Below are positions 11,749 through 63,888 of a stretch of DNA of 64,000 nt, in pieces; position 1 is the first letter of the stretch; the number at the start of each line of letters is the position of its first letter. The notes beneath the pieces are model-generated. The model did no database searches, had not been told where the DNA came from, and was given only the letters and a program-made list of their open reading frames with translations. The position numbers were made by a program, and so were the translations under genes. Origin of the DNA: Sutterella wadsworthensis 2_1_59BFAA (GTDB lineage: Bacteria; Pseudomonadota; Gammaproteobacteria; Burkholderiales; Burkholderiaceae_F); assembly GCF_000297775.1 (NCBI RefSeq), contig NZ_JH815517.1:124001-188000 (forward strand), written 5' to 3'.

Positions 11749-12630
11749 ATGGGATGCGCTTATTTGAACAAGGCCGAACACGCGCTTTCGACCGCCATTG
11801 AGGCGGGGACCTGCATGCCCGTCTCCATGGGCGGCGTCGAGCGTCTGGGGGCCCGCGAGGTCGAGGTCTTTCGCATGAATGCAGACGAGCCTGCGCTCGA
11901 CTGGGTGGCAGAGGAGGTTCCCGTTGCGCTTGTCTACAACGGCATCTCGCACGCCGTCATGATGGCCTCTCCCTCGATGCTCGAAGAATTCGCGCTCGGC
12001 TTCTCGCTTGCCGAGGGCATCATTCCCGACGCCTCGCATCTCTATGCCTGCGAGGTGCGCGAGGCCTGCCGCGGCGGCATCGAGGTGGACCTCACGATTT
12101 CGTCCGAATGCTTCTGGAAGCTCAAGGACCGCCGCCGCTCGATGACGGGCCGCACGGGCTGCGGCATCTGCGGCGTCGAAAGTCTTGGAGAGGCCGTGCG
12201 CGAAAAGCGGGTCGTGCCGCACGAGCAGACCTTCCCGATGGCGGCCTATGCCGACGCCCTCGGCTATCTGGAGCGTGTCGAGCGCCTCGGCGGCATCACG
12301 GGCTGCACCCACGCCGCCGTCTGGGTTCGTCCCGACGGAAGCTTTGCGGGCGGCGCCGAAGACGTCGGCAGGCATGTCGCGCTTGACAAGCTGCTCGGTC
12401 TTCGTGCCCGCAGGGGCTGGCGTGACGGCGCGCTTGTCATCAGCTCCAGAGCCTCCTACGAAATGGTTCAGAAGGCGGCCATGTGCGGCGTCGAGATCAT
12501 CTTCGCCGTCTCCGCACCGACGGCGCTCGCCGTCGAACTTGCACGAGAGTGCGGGATCACGCTTGCGGCCTTCTGCCGTCGCAGCCGCGCCAACGTCTAC
12601 TCCCATCCCGAGCGCCTCATTGGGCTCTGA
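11749..12630 (+). CDS. fdhD: FdhD, sulfurtransferase for formate dehydrogenase
   Basis: Transfers sulfur from IscS to the bis-MGD cofactor so that formate dehydrogenase becomes active. The loop with paired cysteines is TGRTGCGICGVES, and the conserved C-terminal blocks GAEDVGRHVALDKLLG and SSRASYEMVQKAA are present. 293 aa from the ATG at 11749, chosen for its GGGAG six bases upstream; the frame stays open 33 codons further without a better site. Last gene of the formate cluster, followed by two hairpins. Confidence 0.94.
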   Translation: MGCAYLNKAEHALSTAIEAGTCMPVSMGGVERLGAREVEVFRMNADEPALDWVAEEVPVALVYNGISHAVMMASPSMLEEFALGFSLAEGIIPDASHLYACEVREACRGGIEVDLTISSECFWKLKDRRRSMTGRTGCGICGVESLGEAVREKRVVPHEQTFPMAAYADALGYLERVERLGGITGCTHAAVWVRPDGSFAGGAEDVGRHVALDKLLGLRARRGWRDGALVISSRASYEMVQKAAMCGVEIIFAVSAPTALAVELARECGITLAAFCRRSRANVYSHPERLIGL

Positions 12631-12668
12631 GAGAAAAAGGGCGAAGACGGAACAAGTTGTCTTGGAAT

Positions 12669-12747
12669 GCCTTCCGGTTTTTCCTTTTTCTCCGGAAGGC
12701 CTTTTGACAGGCGGAGGACTGGTCTCACGGTCTTCCGCCTCTTTTTC
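12669..12747 (+). terminator. Tandem hairpin terminator after fdhD
   Basis: First hairpin: GCCTTCCGG (12669-12677) and CCGGAAGGC (12692-12700), followed by CTTTTG. Second: AGGCGGAGGAC (12709-12719) and GTCTTCCGCCT (12730-12740) with one G-U pair, followed by CTTTTT. The second is a good rho-independent terminator for the formate operon. Confidence 0.75.
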
Positions 12748-12906
12748 GTCTGTTGTCGTCAGAAGGCGGCGTTACCCTGCGGGGCAGACGCCTTTGGATT
12801 ACGGTGAGTCGAACTAGGCAGTTGTGCTTAGATGGATCGGTTCGCTACTGCTGCAAGCCGGGAAAACATGCCTGATTTTTGTTGACGCAAAATGAGGATG
12901 CGGGGA

Positions 12907-31402: not shown

Positions 31403-32476
31403 GTGTCAAACGAGCAAAATAAAATGACAAGAGATCTTTTTGATTGTCTGATGGCCTTGCTTTTGTCTGGAGAAGAAAATCAAAGGCCTGCAAGTGACGC
31501 CTATGAGGTCTGCGTGTGCAAAGGGTGGGCGGAAGGGAGGACTGTCACGGCCGCAGGGTTGGAGGCTCTGAAGCCTTACAAGGTGAGAAACGCCGTCATC
31601 ATGGCTGCAGGGTTCTCGTCAAGATTTGCCCCCTTGTCATATGAATGTCCCAAAGGACTGGTCAAGATCAAGGGGGAGGTACTTGTCGAAAGACAGATCC
31701 GCCAGTTGCAGGAGGCGGGGATTTTAGAAATCATCGTGGTTGTTGGTTATAGAAAAGAAGATTTTTATTATCTTGCCGAAAAGTTCGGTGTTGAGATTGT
31801 GGAAAATTCGGAATATTCGACGAGAAACAATCATTCAAGCCTTATGGCTGTGAAGGAACGAATTTCAAATACGTATGTCTGTTCTGTCGACAATTACTTT
31901 ACAGTAAATCCCTTTAGGTCTTATGAGTGGAAGGCATTTTATTCTGCGCAATGGTCAGAAGGAGAAACTTCCGAATGGTGCATGAGGTCGGATGATACGG
32001 GGAGAATTTCTGAGGTTCAGATAGGTGGTCGCGGGAGCTTCTACATGGTGGGGGCGGCATATTTCGATACTGATTTTTCCAGAAAACTTCTTGATATTAT
32101 TTCGTCAGAGTACTTTGTTCCTTCATCGAGGAGTAAGCTTTGGGAGGATTTCTTTGTCGAGCATCTGGATTCTCTTGATATGGAAATGAAGTGCTTTTCC
32201 GAGGGCTGTCTTCTTGAATTTGACAGCATTGATGATGCAAAAAGCTTTGATCCTGTTTTTCTAAAGGAACAGCAATCTGAAATTCTTGACAGGATAACGG
32301 CTTGTCTGGGTTGCCAGCGAGAGGATATTCATTCCATTGTTTCCTTGAAGTCAGGTCTGGGGAGTGTCAGGATTTCTGTGTCTGGGGAGGTTATTCCAGG
32401 GGCAGCCCAACGAGGCTGCCCTTTGTTTTTTGTGATGCAGTATGCCAGACCTGATGCGATAGCGCGGGTAGTCTAA
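31403..32476 (+). pseudogene. LicC-type CTP:phosphocholine cytidylyltransferase, cut off at the start of a LicA-like domain
   Basis: Residues about 1-55 look like a winged-helix cap (MTRDLFDCLMALL ... TVTAAGLEALKPYKV). A nucleotidyltransferase domain follows: NAVIMAAGFSSRFAPLS, CPKGLVKIKGEVLVERQIRQL, SVDNYFTV. In relatives with this build, a choline/ethanolamine kinase domain starts at a sequence like DRITACLG...IVSLKSGL. Here that start is visible near 32330-32358, but the text then changes to unrelated residues and stops at 32476, just before the IS256 element. The NTP-transferase part itself looks whole and might work. I use the GTG at 31403 (AGGAG upstream); a TTG at 31358 would add 15 residues. 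AT-richer than flanking genes. Product would activate phosphocholine to CDP-choline for surface decoration. Confidence 0.7.
32399..32430 (+). terminator. Hairpin with T-run inside the end of the LicC-like frame
   Basis: GGGGCAGCC / GGCTGCCC (32399-32407 and 32414-32421) around a six-base loop, followed by TTTGTTTTTT. A terminator lying within the last 25 codons of the frame suggests that the end of the frame is not native coding sequence. Confidence 0.6.
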
Positions 32477-43315: not shown

Positions 43316-45220
43316 GTGAAACTCAATCCGCTCCGCTTTTTCAAGAGCCTCTCGGCGAGGCTTCTGCTTCTCACGCTCATCTGGGTGAGCTTCATCGTGA
43401 CCACGATCGGGTATACGATGATGCTCAACTGGAAGCTTGAGAGTTCGTCGGCTGCGACGAATATCATCGGGGACATCAGGTTCCATGTCTTCCGCACCGC
43501 GCTTTATGTGCTTCCGCAGTATGACAACAGGGACTTCGACAACGAAGTCCGTACGGTCAACGCAGGGCTTGATCTTCTCCAGAAGGGTGATCAGTGGCGT
43601 CCGCTTCTCGTGCCTGAGACGCAGGCCATCCGTTCGTCGCTTCAGAGCATCGACTCTGAGTGGAAAGAGTCGGTGCTTCCGCACCTTACGGCCGCCCGCG
43701 GCGGCGCCCGCGAACCGATGATGGGCGACGTCAACCTTTATGTCGAGAAGCTCGCCGCGCTGACGAACGACATCGACGAATATCGCGCGCACTTCCTGTG
43801 GCAGCTCCGCTATCTGCAGGGTCTCCTCATCGTGCTTGCGATCGGCAGTCTCTTCGCGATCATGGCGCTTCTGCTCCGCTGGGTGATCCGTCCCCTCGAG
43901 CAGCTCGGCGGCGCCATCGGACGGCTTTCCTCGGGCGACCTGACGGCCCGCACCGAAGTGAGGAGTGAGGACGAAATCGGCGAGATCGCCGCAGGCTTCA
44001 ACGAGATGGCCGCCAGACTCAAGGATTCTCACGACAATCTCGAGCAGAAGGTAGCCGAGAAGACGGCCAGCGTCGAAGAAAAGAACAGCCATCTCGCGCA
44101 GCTCTACGAGATGACCTCCTATTTCACGCAGCGTCGCAGCCTTGACGACCTTGCCGACGGCTTCGTCTCGCGAATCATGCGCCAGACCGAGGCCGATGCG
44201 TGTACGCTCCAGCTGCTCTCGGGCCGTGACGACTCGATGCAGCTCCTCACGGCCGAGGGACTTTCCGTCGACCTCGTCAAGGCGGTCAACGATCTGCCTG
44301 GCGACGCGGGCATCGTGCCCTCGGTGCTCTCGAAGACCTATCCCGTCTGCTTCCAGCTCACCGAGCTTGAGGACGAGTTTTCCAGACGCTTTGCCGACGC
44401 GGGTTTCAAGACGGCCTACAGCTTCCAGATCCGTTCGACGCCGGGCGACCTCGGCATCTTCACGCTCTTCTTCAAGGAAAGCCCGCAGCTCACGACGCAG
44501 GTCATCCGCCTGCTCGAGAACTTCGTGACCCACTTCGGCGTCGCCGTGGCGAGCAACCGCCTCATCGAGCGCGACCGCCAGTTCGCCGTGGTGCAGGAAC
44601 GTCAGCTCCTTGCACAGGGCCTGCACGACTCGATCGCTCAGGCGCTCTCCTTCCTCAACCTGCAGGTGCAGTTCCTGTCGGACGCCATCCGTACTAACGA
44701 CGTTGCGCTGCGTGACGAATCCCTTTCCGCCATTCGCACGGGCGTTCAGGAGTGCTACGAGGACGTGCGCGAACTCCTTCTCAACTTCCGCGAGCGTTTG
44801 CACAAGGAAGGCTTCATCGAGGGCGTACGGACCGTGATTGATCGCCTCGAGGGACAGTCCCGCATGAACGCGCGTCTTCGAGTCTCGGGGCGTGGCCCGC
44901 AGCTTACGCCGCGCCAGAAGCTTCAGGTGATCTTCATCATTCAGGAGGCGCTCTCCAACGTCCGCAAGCATTCTCATGCCGAAAACGTCGACATCCGCAT
45001 CGAGAACGACGCCGACCTCAAGGTGACGATCACCGACGACGGCGTCGGCATCGATGATGCGCTCGTCACCGAGCGAAAGGGCCAGCACGTGGGCCTCTCG
45101 ATCATGGCCGAGCGCGCATCCCGCATCGGCGCCTTCGTCGACGTCGAGCGCGTCTCGCCCGCAGGCGGCACCCGAGTCGTGCTCATCCTCTCCGAGGAGG
45201 CCAGACACGAGCAGCAGTAG
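43316..45220 (+). CDS. NarX-like membrane histidine kinase, orphan
   Basis: Sensor kinase of the HisKA_3 group. Order: TM1 (about residues 15-40), a periplasmic four-helix region, TM2 (LLIVLAIGSLFAIMALLLRW, about 165-185), HAMP, coiled coil, a GAF-like domain (about 270-420), the phospho-acceptor His437 in QGLHDSIAQALSFLNLQVQFL (split at H), and the HATPase with DDGVGID and GLSIMAERA. 634 aa; GTG start. This is the NarX/NarQ architecture, but the nitrate P-box was not recognisable. It follows parC by 32 bases, and no response regulator lies on either side. Confidence 0.87.
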   Translation: MKLNPLRFFKSLSARLLLLTLIWVSFIVTTIGYTMMLNWKLESSSAATNIIGDIRFHVFRTALYVLPQYDNRDFDNEVRTVNAGLDLLQKGDQWRPLLVPETQAIRSSLQSIDSEWKESVLPHLTAARGGAREPMMGDVNLYVEKLAALTNDIDEYRAHFLWQLRYLQGLLIVLAIGSLFAIMALLLRWVIRPLEQLGGAIGRLSSGDLTARTEVRSEDEIGEIAAGFNEMAARLKDSHDNLEQKVAEKTASVEEKNSHLAQLYEMTSYFTQRRSLDDLADGFVSRIMRQTEADACTLQLLSGRDDSMQLLTAEGLSVDLVKAVNDLPGDAGIVPSVLSKTYPVCFQLTELEDEFSRRFADAGFKTAYSFQIRSTPGDLGIFTLFFKESPQLTTQVIRLLENFVTHFGVAVASNRLIERDRQFAVVQERQLLAQGLHDSIAQALSFLNLQVQFLSDAIRTNDVALRDESLSAIRTGVQECYEDVRELLLNFRERLHKEGFIEGVRTVIDRLEGQSRMNARLRVSGRGPQLTPRQKLQVIFIIQEALSNVRKHSHAENVDIRIENDADLKVTITDDGVGIDDALVTERKGQHVGLSIMAERASRIGAFVDVERVSPAGGTRVVLILSEEARHEQQ

Positions 45221-45359
45221 CTCCGAACGGCTGCCCGCATGGCGGCAGGCGGGCAGCCCGGGAATCCTGCCGGTTGTCCGTCCCGACACCTTCAAGGTAT
45301 TCGATGGAAACGACAGCAGGACAGGGGAGCCTAAGGATTTGTACGGATGGATTTCAAGG

Positions 45360-45373
45360 TTGACGCATGTCAA
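45360..45373. promoter_or_regulatory. CRP/FNR-superfamily-type palindrome TTGAC-N4-GTCAA
   Basis: TTGACGCATGTCAA, perfect 5-4-5 dyad with the spacing of FNR-family sites (FNR itself prefers TTGAT-N4-ATCAA). No annotated gene start is near; it sits 57-70 bases upstream of the candidate small RNA. Confidence 0.5.
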
Positions 45374-45411
45374 TGGAGTACGCGTTTTTCCGCAAACTCT
45401 CTTAAGTGGTA

Positions 45412-45428
45412 TTGAGAATTATTCTCAA
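45412..45428. promoter_or_regulatory. Fur-box-like 8-1-8 palindrome
   Basis: TTGAGAATTATTCTCAA is a perfect 17-bp palindrome and fits the 7-1-7 Fur pattern TGATAAT-N-ATTATCA except for symmetrical T-to-G and A-to-C changes. Confidence 0.5.
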
Positions 45429-45429
45429 A

Positions 45430-45613
45430 TGCGGCAAGATACGTTCAACGACAGCGAACGCAGGCCTCTCACCAAAGGACAACGGGGGGCGTCCGAGAGG
45501 CAGGCGATGGAGGGACTCCTTGGTTCTCTCCTGACGGGTACATCTCCGCCCGGCGCTGTTGGGGGTCTGAGAGAGCGGCGGATGCGTGCAATGCGCACCC
45601 GCCGCTCATTTTT
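45430..45613 (+). ncRNA. Candidate small RNA, ends at a terminator
   Basis: After the two palindromes comes a structured stretch. A two-tier hairpin is formed by GCCTCTC (45464-45470) with GAGAGGC (45495-45501), enclosing GGAC (45477-45480) with GTCC (45491-45494). A stable terminator follows: GAGCGGCGG from 45573 with CCGCCGCTC to 45607, then ATTTTTTG. A transcript of roughly 180 bases is predicted. The 5' end is a guess; no clear -35/-10 pair was found. Purely inferred from structure and position. Confidence 0.4.
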
Positions 45614-45636
45614 TGTTGTTCACCTGTACGCCTCAC

Positions 45637-45676
45637 AAAACGGGGAGCCTTGCACAGCGGCAGGACTCCCCGTTTT
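45637..45676. terminator. Bidirectional terminator, end of the arg operon
   Basis: AAAACGGGGAG (45637-45647) and CTCCCCGTTTT (45666-45676), perfect 11-bp arms, 34 bases past the argD stop on the minus strand. Confidence 0.8.
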
Positions 45677-45709
45677 CGATGGTGTGTTGCAAGACAGGTC
45701 GGAGGCGGC

Positions 45710-46897
45710 TTAGTGTGCGGCTTCCTGAACCTCGCGAATGGCGGCTGCAAGCCTCAGCAGGCCGTCAGAAAGCTCCTCCTCGGTGATGGCGAGCGGCGGG
45801 AGCAGGCGCACGCGGTCCTTGGCGGTGAGGACGACGAGACCGTTGTCGAGGGCCTTTGCCTTGATGTCGGCAGACTTGCAGCCCTCGACCGAGAAGCCGA
45901 GCATGAGACCGAGCCCGGAGACGTCCTTCACGCCGGGGATTTTTTCCAGTTCGGCGGTGAGCCAGGTACCCTTCTGTTTGACGGCCTCAAGGAAGGCGTC
46001 GTCGATCTGCTCAAGCACGCTGAGTGCGCCTGCACAGGCGACGGGGTTGCCGCCGAAGGTGGAGCCATGCGTGCCGGGCGTCAGAACCTCGGCTGTCTTC
46101 GAGCCCATGAGCGTCGCGCCGATGGGAAGGCCGTTGCCGAGGCCCTTGGCGGTGGAGACGAGGTCGGGTGAAAGGCCGAACTGCTCGTAGGCGAACCAGG
46201 TGCCCGTTCGGCCGTTGCCCGTCTGCACTTCGTCGACGCAGAAGAGCACGTTCTTTTCGTGGCAGAGCGCCTCTACGGCCTTCAGGTAGTCCGCGTCGAG
46301 CGCGCGCACGCCACCTTCGCCCTGAACGATCTCGACGAGAACGGCGGAGCAGTCCTCGGCGTCAAGCTGCCTTTCGAGTGCGGCAAGGTCGCCCGCGGGC
46401 ACGTAGCGGAATCCCGGCGTGAAGGGCCCGAAGAACTTGTGGAACGTGTCCTGCCCCGTGGCGGTGACGGTCGTGAGCGTGCGGCCGTGGAAGCTGTTGA
46501 CGAGCGTGACGAAGGGATGCTCGCCTTCTCCCTTGGTGTCGGAAGCCCACTTTCGGGCGGTCTTGATCAGGCACTCGTTGGCCTCGGCGCCTGAGTTGGA
46601 AAGAAAGACGCGCTCGAAGTGCGTGCGAAGCGCAAGGCGTCCCGCGAGCATGGCGGTCTTCTCGTTGTAGAAGAGGTTCGAGGTGTGCGGAAGAACTGCG
46701 GCCTGTTCGGAGACGGCCTTCACCCATTCGGGGTTGGCATAGCCGAGGCTCATGACGCCGATGCCGCTGCCGAAGTCGATGTAGTCGCGGCCCTTGTCGT
46801 CCCAGAGACGGGCTCCGCGGCCGCGCTCGAAGACGACGGGCGCGCGCCCGTAGGTGCAGGCGTGGTAAAGGCTGTCGATGGTCTTGATGTCCTTCAT
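45710..46897 (-). CDS. argD: Acetylornithine aminotransferase
   Basis: PLP class-III aminotransferase: N-acetylglutamate semialdehyde to N-acetylornithine. PLP-binding motif VSTAKGLGNGLPIGA with the Schiff-base Lys, CVDEVQTGNGRTG upstream, and THGSTFGGNPVACA. 395 aa. Last gene of argC-argJ-argB-argD on the minus strand, 41 bases after argB. Confidence 0.94.
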   Translation of the reverse strand: MKDIKTIDSLYHACTYGRAPVVFERGRGARLWDDKGRDYIDFGSGIGVMSLGYANPEWVKAVSEQAAVLPHTSNLFYNEKTAMLAGRLALRTHFERVFLSNSGAEANECLIKTARKWASDTKGEGEHPFVTLVNSFHGRTLTTVTATGQDTFHKFFGPFTPGFRYVPAGDLAALERQLDAEDCSAVLVEIVQGEGGVRALDADYLKAVEALCHEKNVLFCVDEVQTGNGRTGTWFAYEQFGLSPDLVSTAKGLGNGLPIGATLMGSKTAEVLTPGTHGSTFGGNPVACAGALSVLEQIDDAFLEAVKQKGTWLTAELEKIPGVKDVSGLGLMLGFSVEGCKSADIKAKALDNGLVVLTAKDRVRLLPPLAITEEELSDGLLRLAAAIREVQEAAH

Positions 46898-61445: not shown

Positions 61446-62678
61446 TTAGTCCGCTCCCTCGACATAGGGTTCGGAATTGAGGTCGCCCTCCATCTTGGTG
61501 ACGATGACGGCGGCGGCCACGTCGCCGACCACGTTGATGGACGTGCGGATCATGTCGAGAATACGGTCGACGCCGGCGATGAGCGCAACGGCTTCGAGCG
61601 GAATGCCGACCTGCGTGAAGATGATCGTCGTCATGATCAGACCTGCGCCCGGAACGCCGGCGGTGCCGACGGCGGCGAGAACGCCCATCAGAACGATGGT
61701 GAGCTGGTCGGCCATCGTGAGCGGAAGACCGTAGACTTCAGCCGCGAAGATCGAGCAGACGCCCATGTAGATGGCCGTACCGTTCATGTTGATCGTATTG
61801 CCGAGCGGGATCGAGAAGGAGGAGATCGCCTTCGTGGAGCCGAGCTTGCGGGCGGCGTTCAGGTTGGCCGGAAGGGCGGCGGCGGACGAGCAGGTCGTGA
61901 AGGCGACGAGCCACGGTTCGAAGATGCCCTTGAGGAAGGTCATGATCGGTATGCCTGTCGCGATGCGCACGAGCGGCAGCAGGATCATACCGACGAACAC
62001 GACGGTCGCGAGGAAGGCCGTGAGAATGAGGGCGCCGAGCGGAAGCAGGACGGCGAGGCCGTGACGGCTGACCGTGAACGAGATGAGGCCGAAGACGCCG
62101 ATCGGGGCGTAGAGCATGACCATGTGGGTGACGCGGATCATCACGTCGCCGACGATTTCGAAGAAGTGAAGCACGGGCTTGCCGCGTTCACCAAGGCCGG
62201 AGAGGGCGAAGCCGAAGATCACCGCGAAGAAGATGATCTGAAGCATGGAGCCTTCGGCCATGGCCTGCATGGGGTTGATCGGGACGATGGCGAGCAGCGT
62301 CTTGACGAGCGGGGGCGCCACGACTTCCTTGGCCTGAAGGCCTTCGGTGGAGAGGTCAAGGCCCATGCCCGGCTGGATGATGCCTGCAAAGAGCAGGCCG
62401 CAGGCCACGGCGATGCCGGTCGTCACGGCATAGACGAGAAGAACCTTGACGGCGACACGACCGAGCTTGGACGTGTCGGAGATGCCGGCGGCGCCGGCAA
62501 TGATCGTTGCCAGAACGAGAGGAACGACCACCATTCGGATCAGACGAATGAAGAGGTCGCCGAGCGGCTGAAGCCACGTCTGGGCGAAGGAGGAATCAAC
62601 GAGCGCGCCGACTACGATACCGAGCGCGAGCCCGATCATCATCTGCCAGGCCAGACTGATTTTTATTTTGGAGGACAT
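61446..62678 (-). CDS. Dicarboxylate/amino acid:cation symporter (GltP/DctA-like)
   Basis: Second DAACS transporter. Serine-rich hairpin TTCSSAAALPANL, ion site GNTINMNGTAIYMG, and VGTAGVPGAG. About eight membrane segments, 410 aa. The start is taken at the ATG at 62678 with AGGGG eight bases away; a GTG three codons earlier is possible. Closer to glutamate/C4-dicarboxylate carriers than the first copy, whose hairpin is SSAGTLP. Terminated by the strong hairpin. Confidence 0.88.
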   Translation of the reverse strand: MSSKIKISLAWQMMIGLALGIVVGALVDSSFAQTWLQPLGDLFIRLIRMVVVPLVLATIIAGAAGISDTSKLGRVAVKVLLVYAVTTGIAVACGLLFAGIIQPGMGLDLSTEGLQAKEVVAPPLVKTLLAIVPINPMQAMAEGSMLQIIFFAVIFGFALSGLGERGKPVLHFFEIVGDVMIRVTHMVMLYAPIGVFGLISFTVSRHGLAVLLPLGALILTAFLATVVFVGMILLPLVRIATGIPIMTFLKGIFEPWLVAFTTCSSAAALPANLNAARKLGSTKAISSFSIPLGNTINMNGTAIYMGVCSIFAAEVYGLPLTMADQLTIVLMGVLAAVGTAGVPGAGLIMTTIIFTQVGIPLEAVALIAGVDRILDMIRTSINVVGDVAAAVIVTKMEGDLNSEPYVEGAD

Positions 62679-62911
62679 AATCTCCACCCCTAGCTGTTGT
62701 TACTCTTATATAGCCGCCGCACGGTTGGAAAGAGGGTGCAACGACGCTGACGGAATGTTTGCTCCCGCTTTGACTCGATTCTATTCACCTAGCTCATATA
62801 TAAGACCTAGGGTAAACGCGTATTCGTCGGTGCGTGCTTCAGTTTGCTTTTGCGGGAGTTTCCGAAGGGGGCGCCCAATGTACGTGGATTGCGGCGTGAT
62901 GTTGATTTCGA

Positions 62912-62925
62912 TCAAAAGGCAGCCA
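62912..62925. promoter_or_regulatory. Perfect FNR-type box
   Basis: TTGATTTCGATCAA, exact match to TTGAT-N4-ATCAA. It sits in a 390-base gap between divergent genes, 144 bases before the ZIP start and 233 bases from the symporter start. Rest of the gap: AT-rich patches, no gene. Confidence 0.65.
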
Positions 62926-63069: not shown

Positions 63070-63888
63070 ATGGATACTCTTCTACACATCCTTGCCGCAG
63101 GCGTTTTGACGAGAGTCCTTTCGATTTCCGTTGCCGCGCTGCTTTCCTGCCGATGGCTTGCGGGCCTCTCCGAGCAGCTCCTCGCGGTCGCCTGCGGGCT
63201 GCTTGCCGCAGTTGCGCTCACGCACCTCATTCCCGAGGCCTTTGAGATGCCCGGGGTCGAGGCGCATGATCTGGGACTCGTCATGCTCGGCACGGTCCTG
63301 CTCTTTCTGTTTCTGGAGCGGATCTTCACGCATCACGGGCACGAGGGATGCGGCGAGGCTCATCCGGGGCGTGCGGTCGCGACGGCCGTGATGACGGGAG
63401 CGGGACTGCACAACTTCGTCGACGGCGTGCTGATCGCCAGCACCTTCCTCATGGACGAGCGTGCGGGCTGGCTGGTGGCGCTTGCCGTCTGCTGCCACGA
63501 GATTCCCCAGTCGACGGGCTACATGGTGATTCTGAAGAACTGCGGACTCGATGCTCGCCGCGCCGTGCTCTGGTGCGTGGCCGCGGCGCTACCGACTCTG
63601 GCGGGCGGCGTCGCGGGCTGGGCCGCCGTGAGCTTCTCGCGTGAGGCGCTGCCCTTTGCGCTTGCTGCCTCCGCCGCCTCCTTTCTCTTCATCACGCTTC
63701 ATGCCCTGCTGCCCGAGGTCTTCAGGGACTGCAGGACAAGGCGAGACGGCCTCAGGCAGCTCGTTCTCTTCATTGCGGGCGTGCTGCTGAGCACCGTCAT
63801 CCTCGGTATTGGGCATGACCACGGCCACGAGGGACATGAGCATGAGAAGCCCGGCGTCCAGCTGCAGGCGGATCCTCACGGGCACTGA
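63070..63888 (+). CDS. ZIP-family divalent metal transporter
   Basis: Imports zinc or another divalent metal. Core motifs are on the membrane helices: HNFVDGVLIAS (TM4) and HEIPQSTGY (TM5), the metal relay of ZIPs. A His/Glu loop HHGHEGCGEAH precedes TM4, and the C-terminus is His-rich (GHDHGHEGHEHE). 272 aa, about eight hydrophobic segments. Single gene; with the UreE-like His/Cys protein it is the second metal-handling gene of the window, though they are not linked. Confidence 0.88.
   Translation: MDTLLHILAAGVLTRVLSISVAALLSCRWLAGLSEQLLAVACGLLAAVALTHLIPEAFEMPGVEAHDLGLVMLGTVLLFLFLERIFTHHGHEGCGEAHPGRAVATAVMTGAGLHNFVDGVLIASTFLMDERAGWLVALAVCCHEIPQSTGYMVILKNCGLDARRAVLWCVAAALPTLAGGVAGWAAVSFSREALPFALAASAASFLFITLHALLPEVFRDCRTRRDGLRQLVLFIAGVLLSTVILGIGHDHGHEGHEHEKPGVQLQADPHGH

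Follow-up and report, generated by a model that had tools for sequence, protein, structure and literature searches.

The gap between two convergent genes of Sutterella wadsworthensis 2_1_59BFAA probably holds the gene of a trans-acting small RNA (sRNA) that spares iron. The predicted gene occupies positions 45446-45614 of the 64,000-nucleotide stretch analysed here (the window) and, judging from its sequence, would be repressed by Fur and would block the mRNAs of iron proteins. It appears to represent a new sRNA family that works like RyhB and PrrF and matches no Rfam family, and the FNR-type input on some of its copies is its most unusual trait. The locus has a promoter of sigma-70 type with a Fur box lying on it, and its RNA shows covariation, carries G-rich motifs and a UCUCC element, ends in a terminator and has paralogues. 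An unannotated sRNA was what the original prediction had proposed here, and the covarying RNA, with 16 copies in nine genomes, supports it; the range given for it, 45400-45620, fits the block from Fur box to terminator (45410-45614). The features of the locus are as follows.

43316-45220, plus strand: upstream neighbour, gene of a NarX-like sensor kinase with HAMP, HisKA_3, HATPase_c and PilJ domains
45221-45709: the gap, between the NarX-like kinase gene (plus) and the argD-like gene (minus), which converge
45360-45373, plus strand: FNR/DNR-type palindrome TTGACGCATGTCAA, a perfect dyad whose centre lies at about -80 relative to where the RNA is predicted to start
45412-45428, plus strand: Fur box TTGAGAATTATTCTCAA, a perfect dyad that includes the -35 element TTGAGA (45412-45417)
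45435-45440, plus strand: weak -10 element CAAGAT, 17 bases past the -35 element
45446-45614, plus strand: predicted sRNA of about 169 nt, which would begin at CAACG and include the whole T-run
45449-45456 paired with 45554-45561, plus strand: closing stem P1, all eight pairs of which are changed on both sides in some copy
45477-45494, plus strand: apical hairpin GGAC/GUCC with loop AACGGGGGGC, the first G-rich motif
45535-45552, plus strand: hairpin with UCUCC in its loop (45543-45547), complementary to a GGAGA Shine-Dalgarno sequence
45561-45572, plus strand: linker GGGGGUCUGAGA, the second G-rich motif and, on the basis of alignments, the proposed main seed
45573-45614, plus strand: intrinsic terminator with T-run (hairpin 45573-45586/45594-45607, then ATTTTTT), whose helix covaries
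45637-45676, strand not given: separate hairpin with A/T flanks
45710-46897, minus strand: downstream convergent neighbour, an argD-like class III aminotransferase gene

The gap had been described as holding no believable gene, and this agrees with what we found. The longest frames over the sRNA (219 aa on the plus strand, 93 aa on the minus strand) both read through the terminator, other open reading frames overlap only its ends, and the window copy has no closed frame of at least 12 codons inside the RNA. The hairpins and the T-tailed terminator described there were recovered as well; the second hairpin (45637-45676) is probably the argD terminator and lies outside the sRNA. The NarX-like kinase gene is preceded by parC (read as such), and no response regulator gene adjoins it on its downstream side.

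Both dyads named in the original prediction are indeed perfect and 38 bases apart. The Fur-type 17-mer has a single match in the window, even with three mismatches allowed, where shuffled sequences give 0.18 expected matches and at least one match in 16 of 100 shuffles. For the FNR-type pattern TTGAY-N4-RTCAA, two sites are present in the 64 kb against 0.15 expected. A second perfect FNR-type palindrome in the window, TTGATTTCGATCAA at 62902-62915, is flanked by genes of a dicarboxylate/glutamate-type transporter (61446-62687, minus strand) and a ZIP-like metal transporter (63070-63888, plus strand), names that come from reading the translations. From the -35 element TTGAGA and the -10 element CAAGAT with their 17-base spacing, we infer that transcription starts near 45446 and that the sRNA is expressed from this promoter. 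A generic promoter and terminator scan of the window reported neither the sRNA promoter nor its terminator; the probable reasons are a promoter score of 8 of 12, where the scan needs 9, and a mismatch in the terminator stem.

The fold of the RNA is maintained by compensatory changes across the family. Of the cells in the 16-row alignment, 93.5% are paired, against 40.6-50.5% with slid partners; 26 of 27 base pairs are changed on both sides somewhere, and covariation scores 0.781, where slid partners reach 0.09-0.14. The fitting of this alignment to the structure favours these figures. The 9-row alignment gives 94.8% pairing, both-side changes in 20 of 27 pairs and a score of 0.781. When each copy was folded singly, all ten of the 16 copies that were compared with shuffles had z values of -3.4 to -5.9; the predicted window transcript folds better than 200 of 200 shuffles (z -3.4). 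It also matches covariance model R3 with 133 bits (E 2e-34), a model in whose building this copy itself was used.

The usual layout starts with CAA, P1, a branch whose apical hairpin shows GGGGUC, and one or two more hairpins, the last of them with UCUCC in its loop, and continues with the return strand of P1, the linker GGGGUC(U/C) and the terminator. The first G-rich motif reads GGGGUC in most copies and GGGGGGC in the window copy. UCUCC is present in all 16 copies, with an unpaired probability of at least 0.88 in 14 of them, and the G-rich motif of the linker, with 0.28-0.68 over the copies where this was measured, is partly free in the predicted folds. Departures are seen in C1, G003b and G003d, whose minimum-energy folds deviate in the apical hairpin (GGGGUC is missing from it in G003d), in G029, which has no clear P1, in G009, which lacks the last hairpin, and in G010b, where the linker motif is lost.

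The promoter geometry is common to 15 of the 16 copies: a TTG-type -35 element, a 17-base spacer and a -10 element with A2 and T6, the boxes starting at -34/-35 and -11/-12 and matching 7-10 of 12 consensus bases. Conservation of both palindromes had been suggested as a check on the original prediction, and it held for the Fur box and in part for the FNR-type site. A Fur box with at most one mismatch from the patterns, which were written after the copies had been seen, precedes 13 of the 16 copies; nine of these boxes start at -34/-35 and four, all of them in G003, at -46. The exceptions are G009, with three mismatches, G010b, with a degenerate box, and G029, whose box coincides with the start of the model match. 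Six of the 16 copies (the window copy, C1, G002, G008, G010a and G029) have a perfect FNR-type site upstream, two-mismatch sites are found at -86 in G009 and G010b, and the remaining eight copies have none. The centre of the perfect site lies near -80 from the predicted start, or near -71 in G010a, and these are distances used by class I activators. Between the FNR-type and Fur-box centres there are 53.5 bases in the window copy and C1, 54.5 in G002 and G008, and 44.5 in G010a; the site of G029 is at another spacing.

Covariance-model and pattern searches together yielded the 16 copies in nine genomes, from Sutterella and two other genera. A DNA search found a second copy on another contig of the window's genome (G000), with 75% identity from the Fur box through the terminator (E 8e-27), and one relative matched at the Fur box and RNA start. 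The first covariance model, made from three sequences, led to copies in two more genomes and to a third copy in G000, and a motif pattern and two improved models found further copies. Models R1-R3 were refined stepwise; training copies match by construction, and copies outside the training sets weigh more. G000 has three copies, G003 four, G010 and G026 two each, and G002 (an uncultured Sutterella from dog), G005, G008, G009 and G029 one each, with two tandem pairs in G003 and one in G026. RNA length in the family is 140-193 nt. Gene neighbours vary among the copies examined, with the exception of G002 and G010a, which share a site behind adk. The second tandem pair of G003 (L018, 1046-1928) sits behind the 5S rRNA gene that closes an rRNA operon.

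Copies were found in seven of the 12 genomes searched within the window's genus and, with R3, in two of 37 family genomes outside it (G026 and G029, of two different genera). Searches with R1, R2 and one pattern gave no convincing copy in G001, G004, G006, G007 and G011. An order-wide search, with seven candidates scored per genome, missed the known member G026. Matches that had no Fur box and motif layout were rejected; these were the model matches L011, L031-L033, L035, L036, L039-L042, L044, L048, L049, L054 (which reads as a tRNA gene), L057, L060, L061 and window 32262-32431, and the pattern matches L017, L019, L024, L026 and L062-L064. The count of 16 also leaves out the reverse-strand terminator matches L010, L043 and L045-L047 and the window match at 12627-12749 (14.3 bits). 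At gathering scores, Rfam gave only tRNA and rRNA families over the window and the 12 loci with the other 15 copies, and tRNAs only over the window alone. Its best sub-threshold match, ctRNA_pGA1, scored 29.1 bits where 45 are required (E 0.0004 for a search of 261 bases) and was taken as chance.

The motifs of the RNA suggest how it may find its targets. GGGGUC and UCUCC are complementary to GGAGACCCC-type ribosome-binding sites, and in the copies of G003 and G008 the linker reads GGGGUCUC(C), which would pair with (G)GAGACCCC, where a C-run follows a Shine-Dalgarno sequence. A screen for AGACCCC-N1-14-ATG in G000, G002, G003 and G008 returned 128 rows for 124 distinct sites, all of which were fetched. 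Seed sites before ATG are in excess over the reversed control in G002 (43 versus 18) and show no excess in the other three genomes (15 versus 33 in G000, 40 versus 47 in G003, 30 versus 40 in G008). Twenty sites precede starts that we judged to be true and that have a family assignment, and ten of these belong to iron or haem proteins. Nine of the 12 starts with GAGACCCC are of iron or haem proteins or their assembly, against one of the eight starts without it (Fisher p 0.01, for a split made after the seeds had been seen). All nine come from two relatives: sodB, ccmE, a class I fumarase gene and ttdA from G008, and ccmE, hcp and the genes of a flavocytochrome c, an OmcA/MtrC-like multihaem cytochrome and a dmsA-like Mo/Fe4S4 reductase from G003. 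The other GAGACCCC starts are dcuB (G000), a FixJ/TtrR-like regulator (G003) and lpxB (G008), and the lone iron case among the eight is a tetrahaem cytochrome of G008. The screen gave no iron protein in G000 and G002; the window's own genome yielded tctB, dcuB and a doubtful permease, and the target evidence within it is thin.

Starts were first filtered by upstream frame, and relisting of the dropped sites added the dmsA-like gene and hcp; the dcuB, regulator, GDT1 and napD starts had been seen before these two were added. NapD was classed as not iron, and a background of 10-20% iron proteins was assumed. The count of 20 excludes five frames without a Pfam family (L084, L158, L163, L188 and L194). 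Of 18 further frames that continue upstream, most match a family that begins upstream, two of them iron families (aconitase and a 4Fe-4S protein), and were left out as internal. L221, a weak HisKA match, was excluded by eye, L231-L234 were not used, and L069, L099 and L222 are doubtful starts. In L171 (G003), another of the 18 frames, GGGAGACCCC precedes a membrane protein without a family at what looks like a true start; we know of no iron link for this protein, and if it is counted the GAGACCCC figure becomes 9/13. L164 has family matches below cut-off only, its haem motif having been read by eye, and the nearest model to the screened SodB is Fe-SOD, with a score below cut-off.

Orthologues were looked up by protein in 13 genomes. 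GACCCC lies within 30 bases upstream of the ccmE start in six of them (G003, G004, G006, G007, G008 and G026), where chance is below 1% per gene; of the six, G003 and G008 belong to the screen from which ccmE was picked, and G004 and G007 are alike. The ccmE leaders of G007 (L117), G004 (L118) and G006 (L119) carry GAGACCCC or GGAGACCCC, and these genomes, in which R1, R2 and one pattern found no copy, probably hold an sRNA copy that R1 and R2 missed.

Duplex energies were computed between sRNA segments and leaders, and each was set against 300 dinucleotide shuffles, with counts that differ between runs (0 and 3 of 300 for sodB of G008, 5 and 16 for ttdA). At most 17 of 300 shuffles did as well as the real leader in seven of 26 gene-genome pairs, namely sodB, ccmE, ttdA and fumarase in G008, ccmE and ttdA in G026, and sodB in G000. 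The predicted pairing of G008 is -32.2 kcal/mol for ccmE, with 0 of 300 shuffles as good, and -23.6 kcal/mol for sodB, with the two counts above; its fumarase gives 1 of 300 at the likely true start versus 48 of 300 at the screened start. In G026 the values are -22.0 kcal/mol (3 of 300) for ccmE and -23.3 kcal/mol (1 of 300) for ttdA. For sodB of the window's genome, the predicted pairing of the linker covers 14 leader bases at -21.1 kcal/mol and is marginal (17 of 300), and pairing with ccmE (251 of 300) and ttdA (187 of 300) of this genome is no better than with shuffles. Next in rank are sodB of G009 (23 of 300) and ccmE of G003 (37 of 300), and the remaining seventeen pairs stand at 53 of 300 or more. 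Among the 13 screened targets, seven were reached by at most 16 of 300 shuffles, one of them lpxB of G008, a non-iron gene whose pairing is as good as that of the iron genes (4 of 300); ccmE and the dmsA-like gene of G003 are outside these seven. Our confidence in the iron-sparing reading is slightly lowered by the fact that shuffles are beaten in only some of the pairings, that of lpxB included.

These observations suggest a mechanism for the sRNA. When iron is present, Fur-Fe2+ would occupy the -35 element and block transcription, and when iron is absent the sRNA would be made. FNR bound at class I distance upstream of the window copy, C1, G002, G008 and G010a may raise the sRNA in the absence of oxygen. 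Pairing of the GGGGUC(U/C) linker and of the loops with GGAGACCCC-like ribosome-binding sites would block translation of mRNAs that encode superoxide dismutase, Fe-S hydro-lyases, multihaem cytochromes, Fe-S reductases and proteins of cytochrome c maturation, possibly saving iron for essential uses. As a tentative extension, which we rate somewhat below an even chance, the family would read two signals, iron through Fur and oxygen through FNR, reaching full output only in anaerobic, iron-starved cells. UCUCC would then sit on the Shine-Dalgarno sequence and GGGGUC on the adjoining C-run, and the siblings, multiplied and diverged, some through loss of the FNR input or drift of the seed, may split the regulon by oxygen state.

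The oxygen input is the part of this proposal with the most serious competitor. It is quite conceivable, if on balance doubtful, that the sRNA is Fur-controlled and iron-sparing while the FNR-type dyad serves another regulator of the CRP/FNR family (DNR/NnrR-like, responding to nitric oxide) or is idle. TTGAC-N4-GTCAA also resembles the sites of NO-sensing DNR, and half of the copies have no FNR-type site. Against this reading, five perfect sites lie at one or the other of two distances from the Fur box that are about one helical turn apart. An unlikely alternative would be that a real Fur-controlled RNA acts by binding a protein, for example of the CsrA/RsmE-like type, through its G-rich repeats and not by mRNA pairing. 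The repeated G-rich elements, the multibranch fold kept in most copies and the seed complement that shows no overall excess before ATG in three of four genomes would suit such a role. CsrA sites carry an ANGGA loop, whereas the loops here carry GGGGUC, and titration of a protein would not predict the iron-rich list of genes with GAGACCCC.

Two further explanations would remove the sRNA altogether. That the palindromes serve a hidden short protein gene or leader peptide, the RNA being its mRNA, seems very improbable to us: the 219-codon frame spans the gap but passes through the terminator, and it is the base pairs that are conserved. Seven of the 16 copies do contain a closed frame of 12-46 codons; these frames, however, vary in start, length and place and have no Shine-Dalgarno sequence by the test used, and nine copies have none. 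We give almost no credence to chance dyads beside a leftover terminator in a convergent gap. Each dyad taken alone is modestly likely in 64 kb, at the expected numbers given above, but paralogues and relatives with a covarying fold and the same layout contradict this explanation.

The iron-sparing sRNA proposed here can be placed among known RNAs. PrrF was found by a Fur site and a terminator, has sibling copies that are tandem in some species, and blocks the expression of iron-protein genes (PMC4211561). The Sutterella sRNA is like PrrF1 and PrrF2 of Pseudomonas in its Fur site, terminator, siblings and tandem copies, and unlike them in its G-rich seeds, the FNR-type site on some copies and its up to four copies per genome. 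Rfam includes PrrF, and the Sutterella sRNA differs from both PrrF and RyhB in having no Rfam match. With RyhB of enterobacteria, for which fumarase is also a target and whose seed and fold we take to differ, it shares predicted Fur control and sodB among the candidate targets. The original prediction had likened it to RyhB or FnrS, and since its likely targets resemble those of RyhB and PrrF, it is probably RyhB/PrrF-like rather than FnrS-like.

The sodB gene is a confirmed RyhB target, and BrrF of Burkholderia cenocepacia, a member of the same order, is a low-iron sRNA that acts on sodB, fumA and others (PMC7377471). Mutating successive G residues near the 5' end of BrrF abolished or reduced most effects, and BrrF is cut from the hemP transcript, behind hemP, without a Fur box of its own (PMC7377471). 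The Sutterella sRNA, in contrast, has its own Fur box and a NarX-like kinase gene and argD as neighbours, and it is by this promoter and these neighbours that it is set apart from BrrF. IsrR of Staphylococcus aureus is Fur-controlled, pairs with ribosome-binding sites through several repeated motifs and regulates Fe-S enzymes used in anaerobic nitrate respiration (PMC11257911). Its motifs are C-rich, and those of the Sutterella sRNA are G-rich plus UCUCC.

FnrS of enterobacteria is an sRNA with an FNR-type site upstream. The window copy is like it in this respect; unlike in FnrS, the Fur box is the constant feature of the Sutterella family and the FNR-type site belongs to some copies only. Iron-sparing sRNAs arise unrelated in many lineages, and the family looks like an independent instance of this strategy, which bears on why unrelated RNAs recur across lineages. 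We found no report of an iron sRNA in Sutterella in the open-licence literature. Sutterella are common gut bacteria, and the family, with multihaem cytochromes and Fe-S/Mo enzymes among its candidate targets, would give them a concrete iron-sparing circuit, in which one sRNA promoter receives both an iron input and what appears to be an oxygen input. In G003, the gene of the FixJ/TtrR-like response regulator (L086) begins with GGAGACCCC, a possible route from the sRNA to the control of anaerobic respiration.
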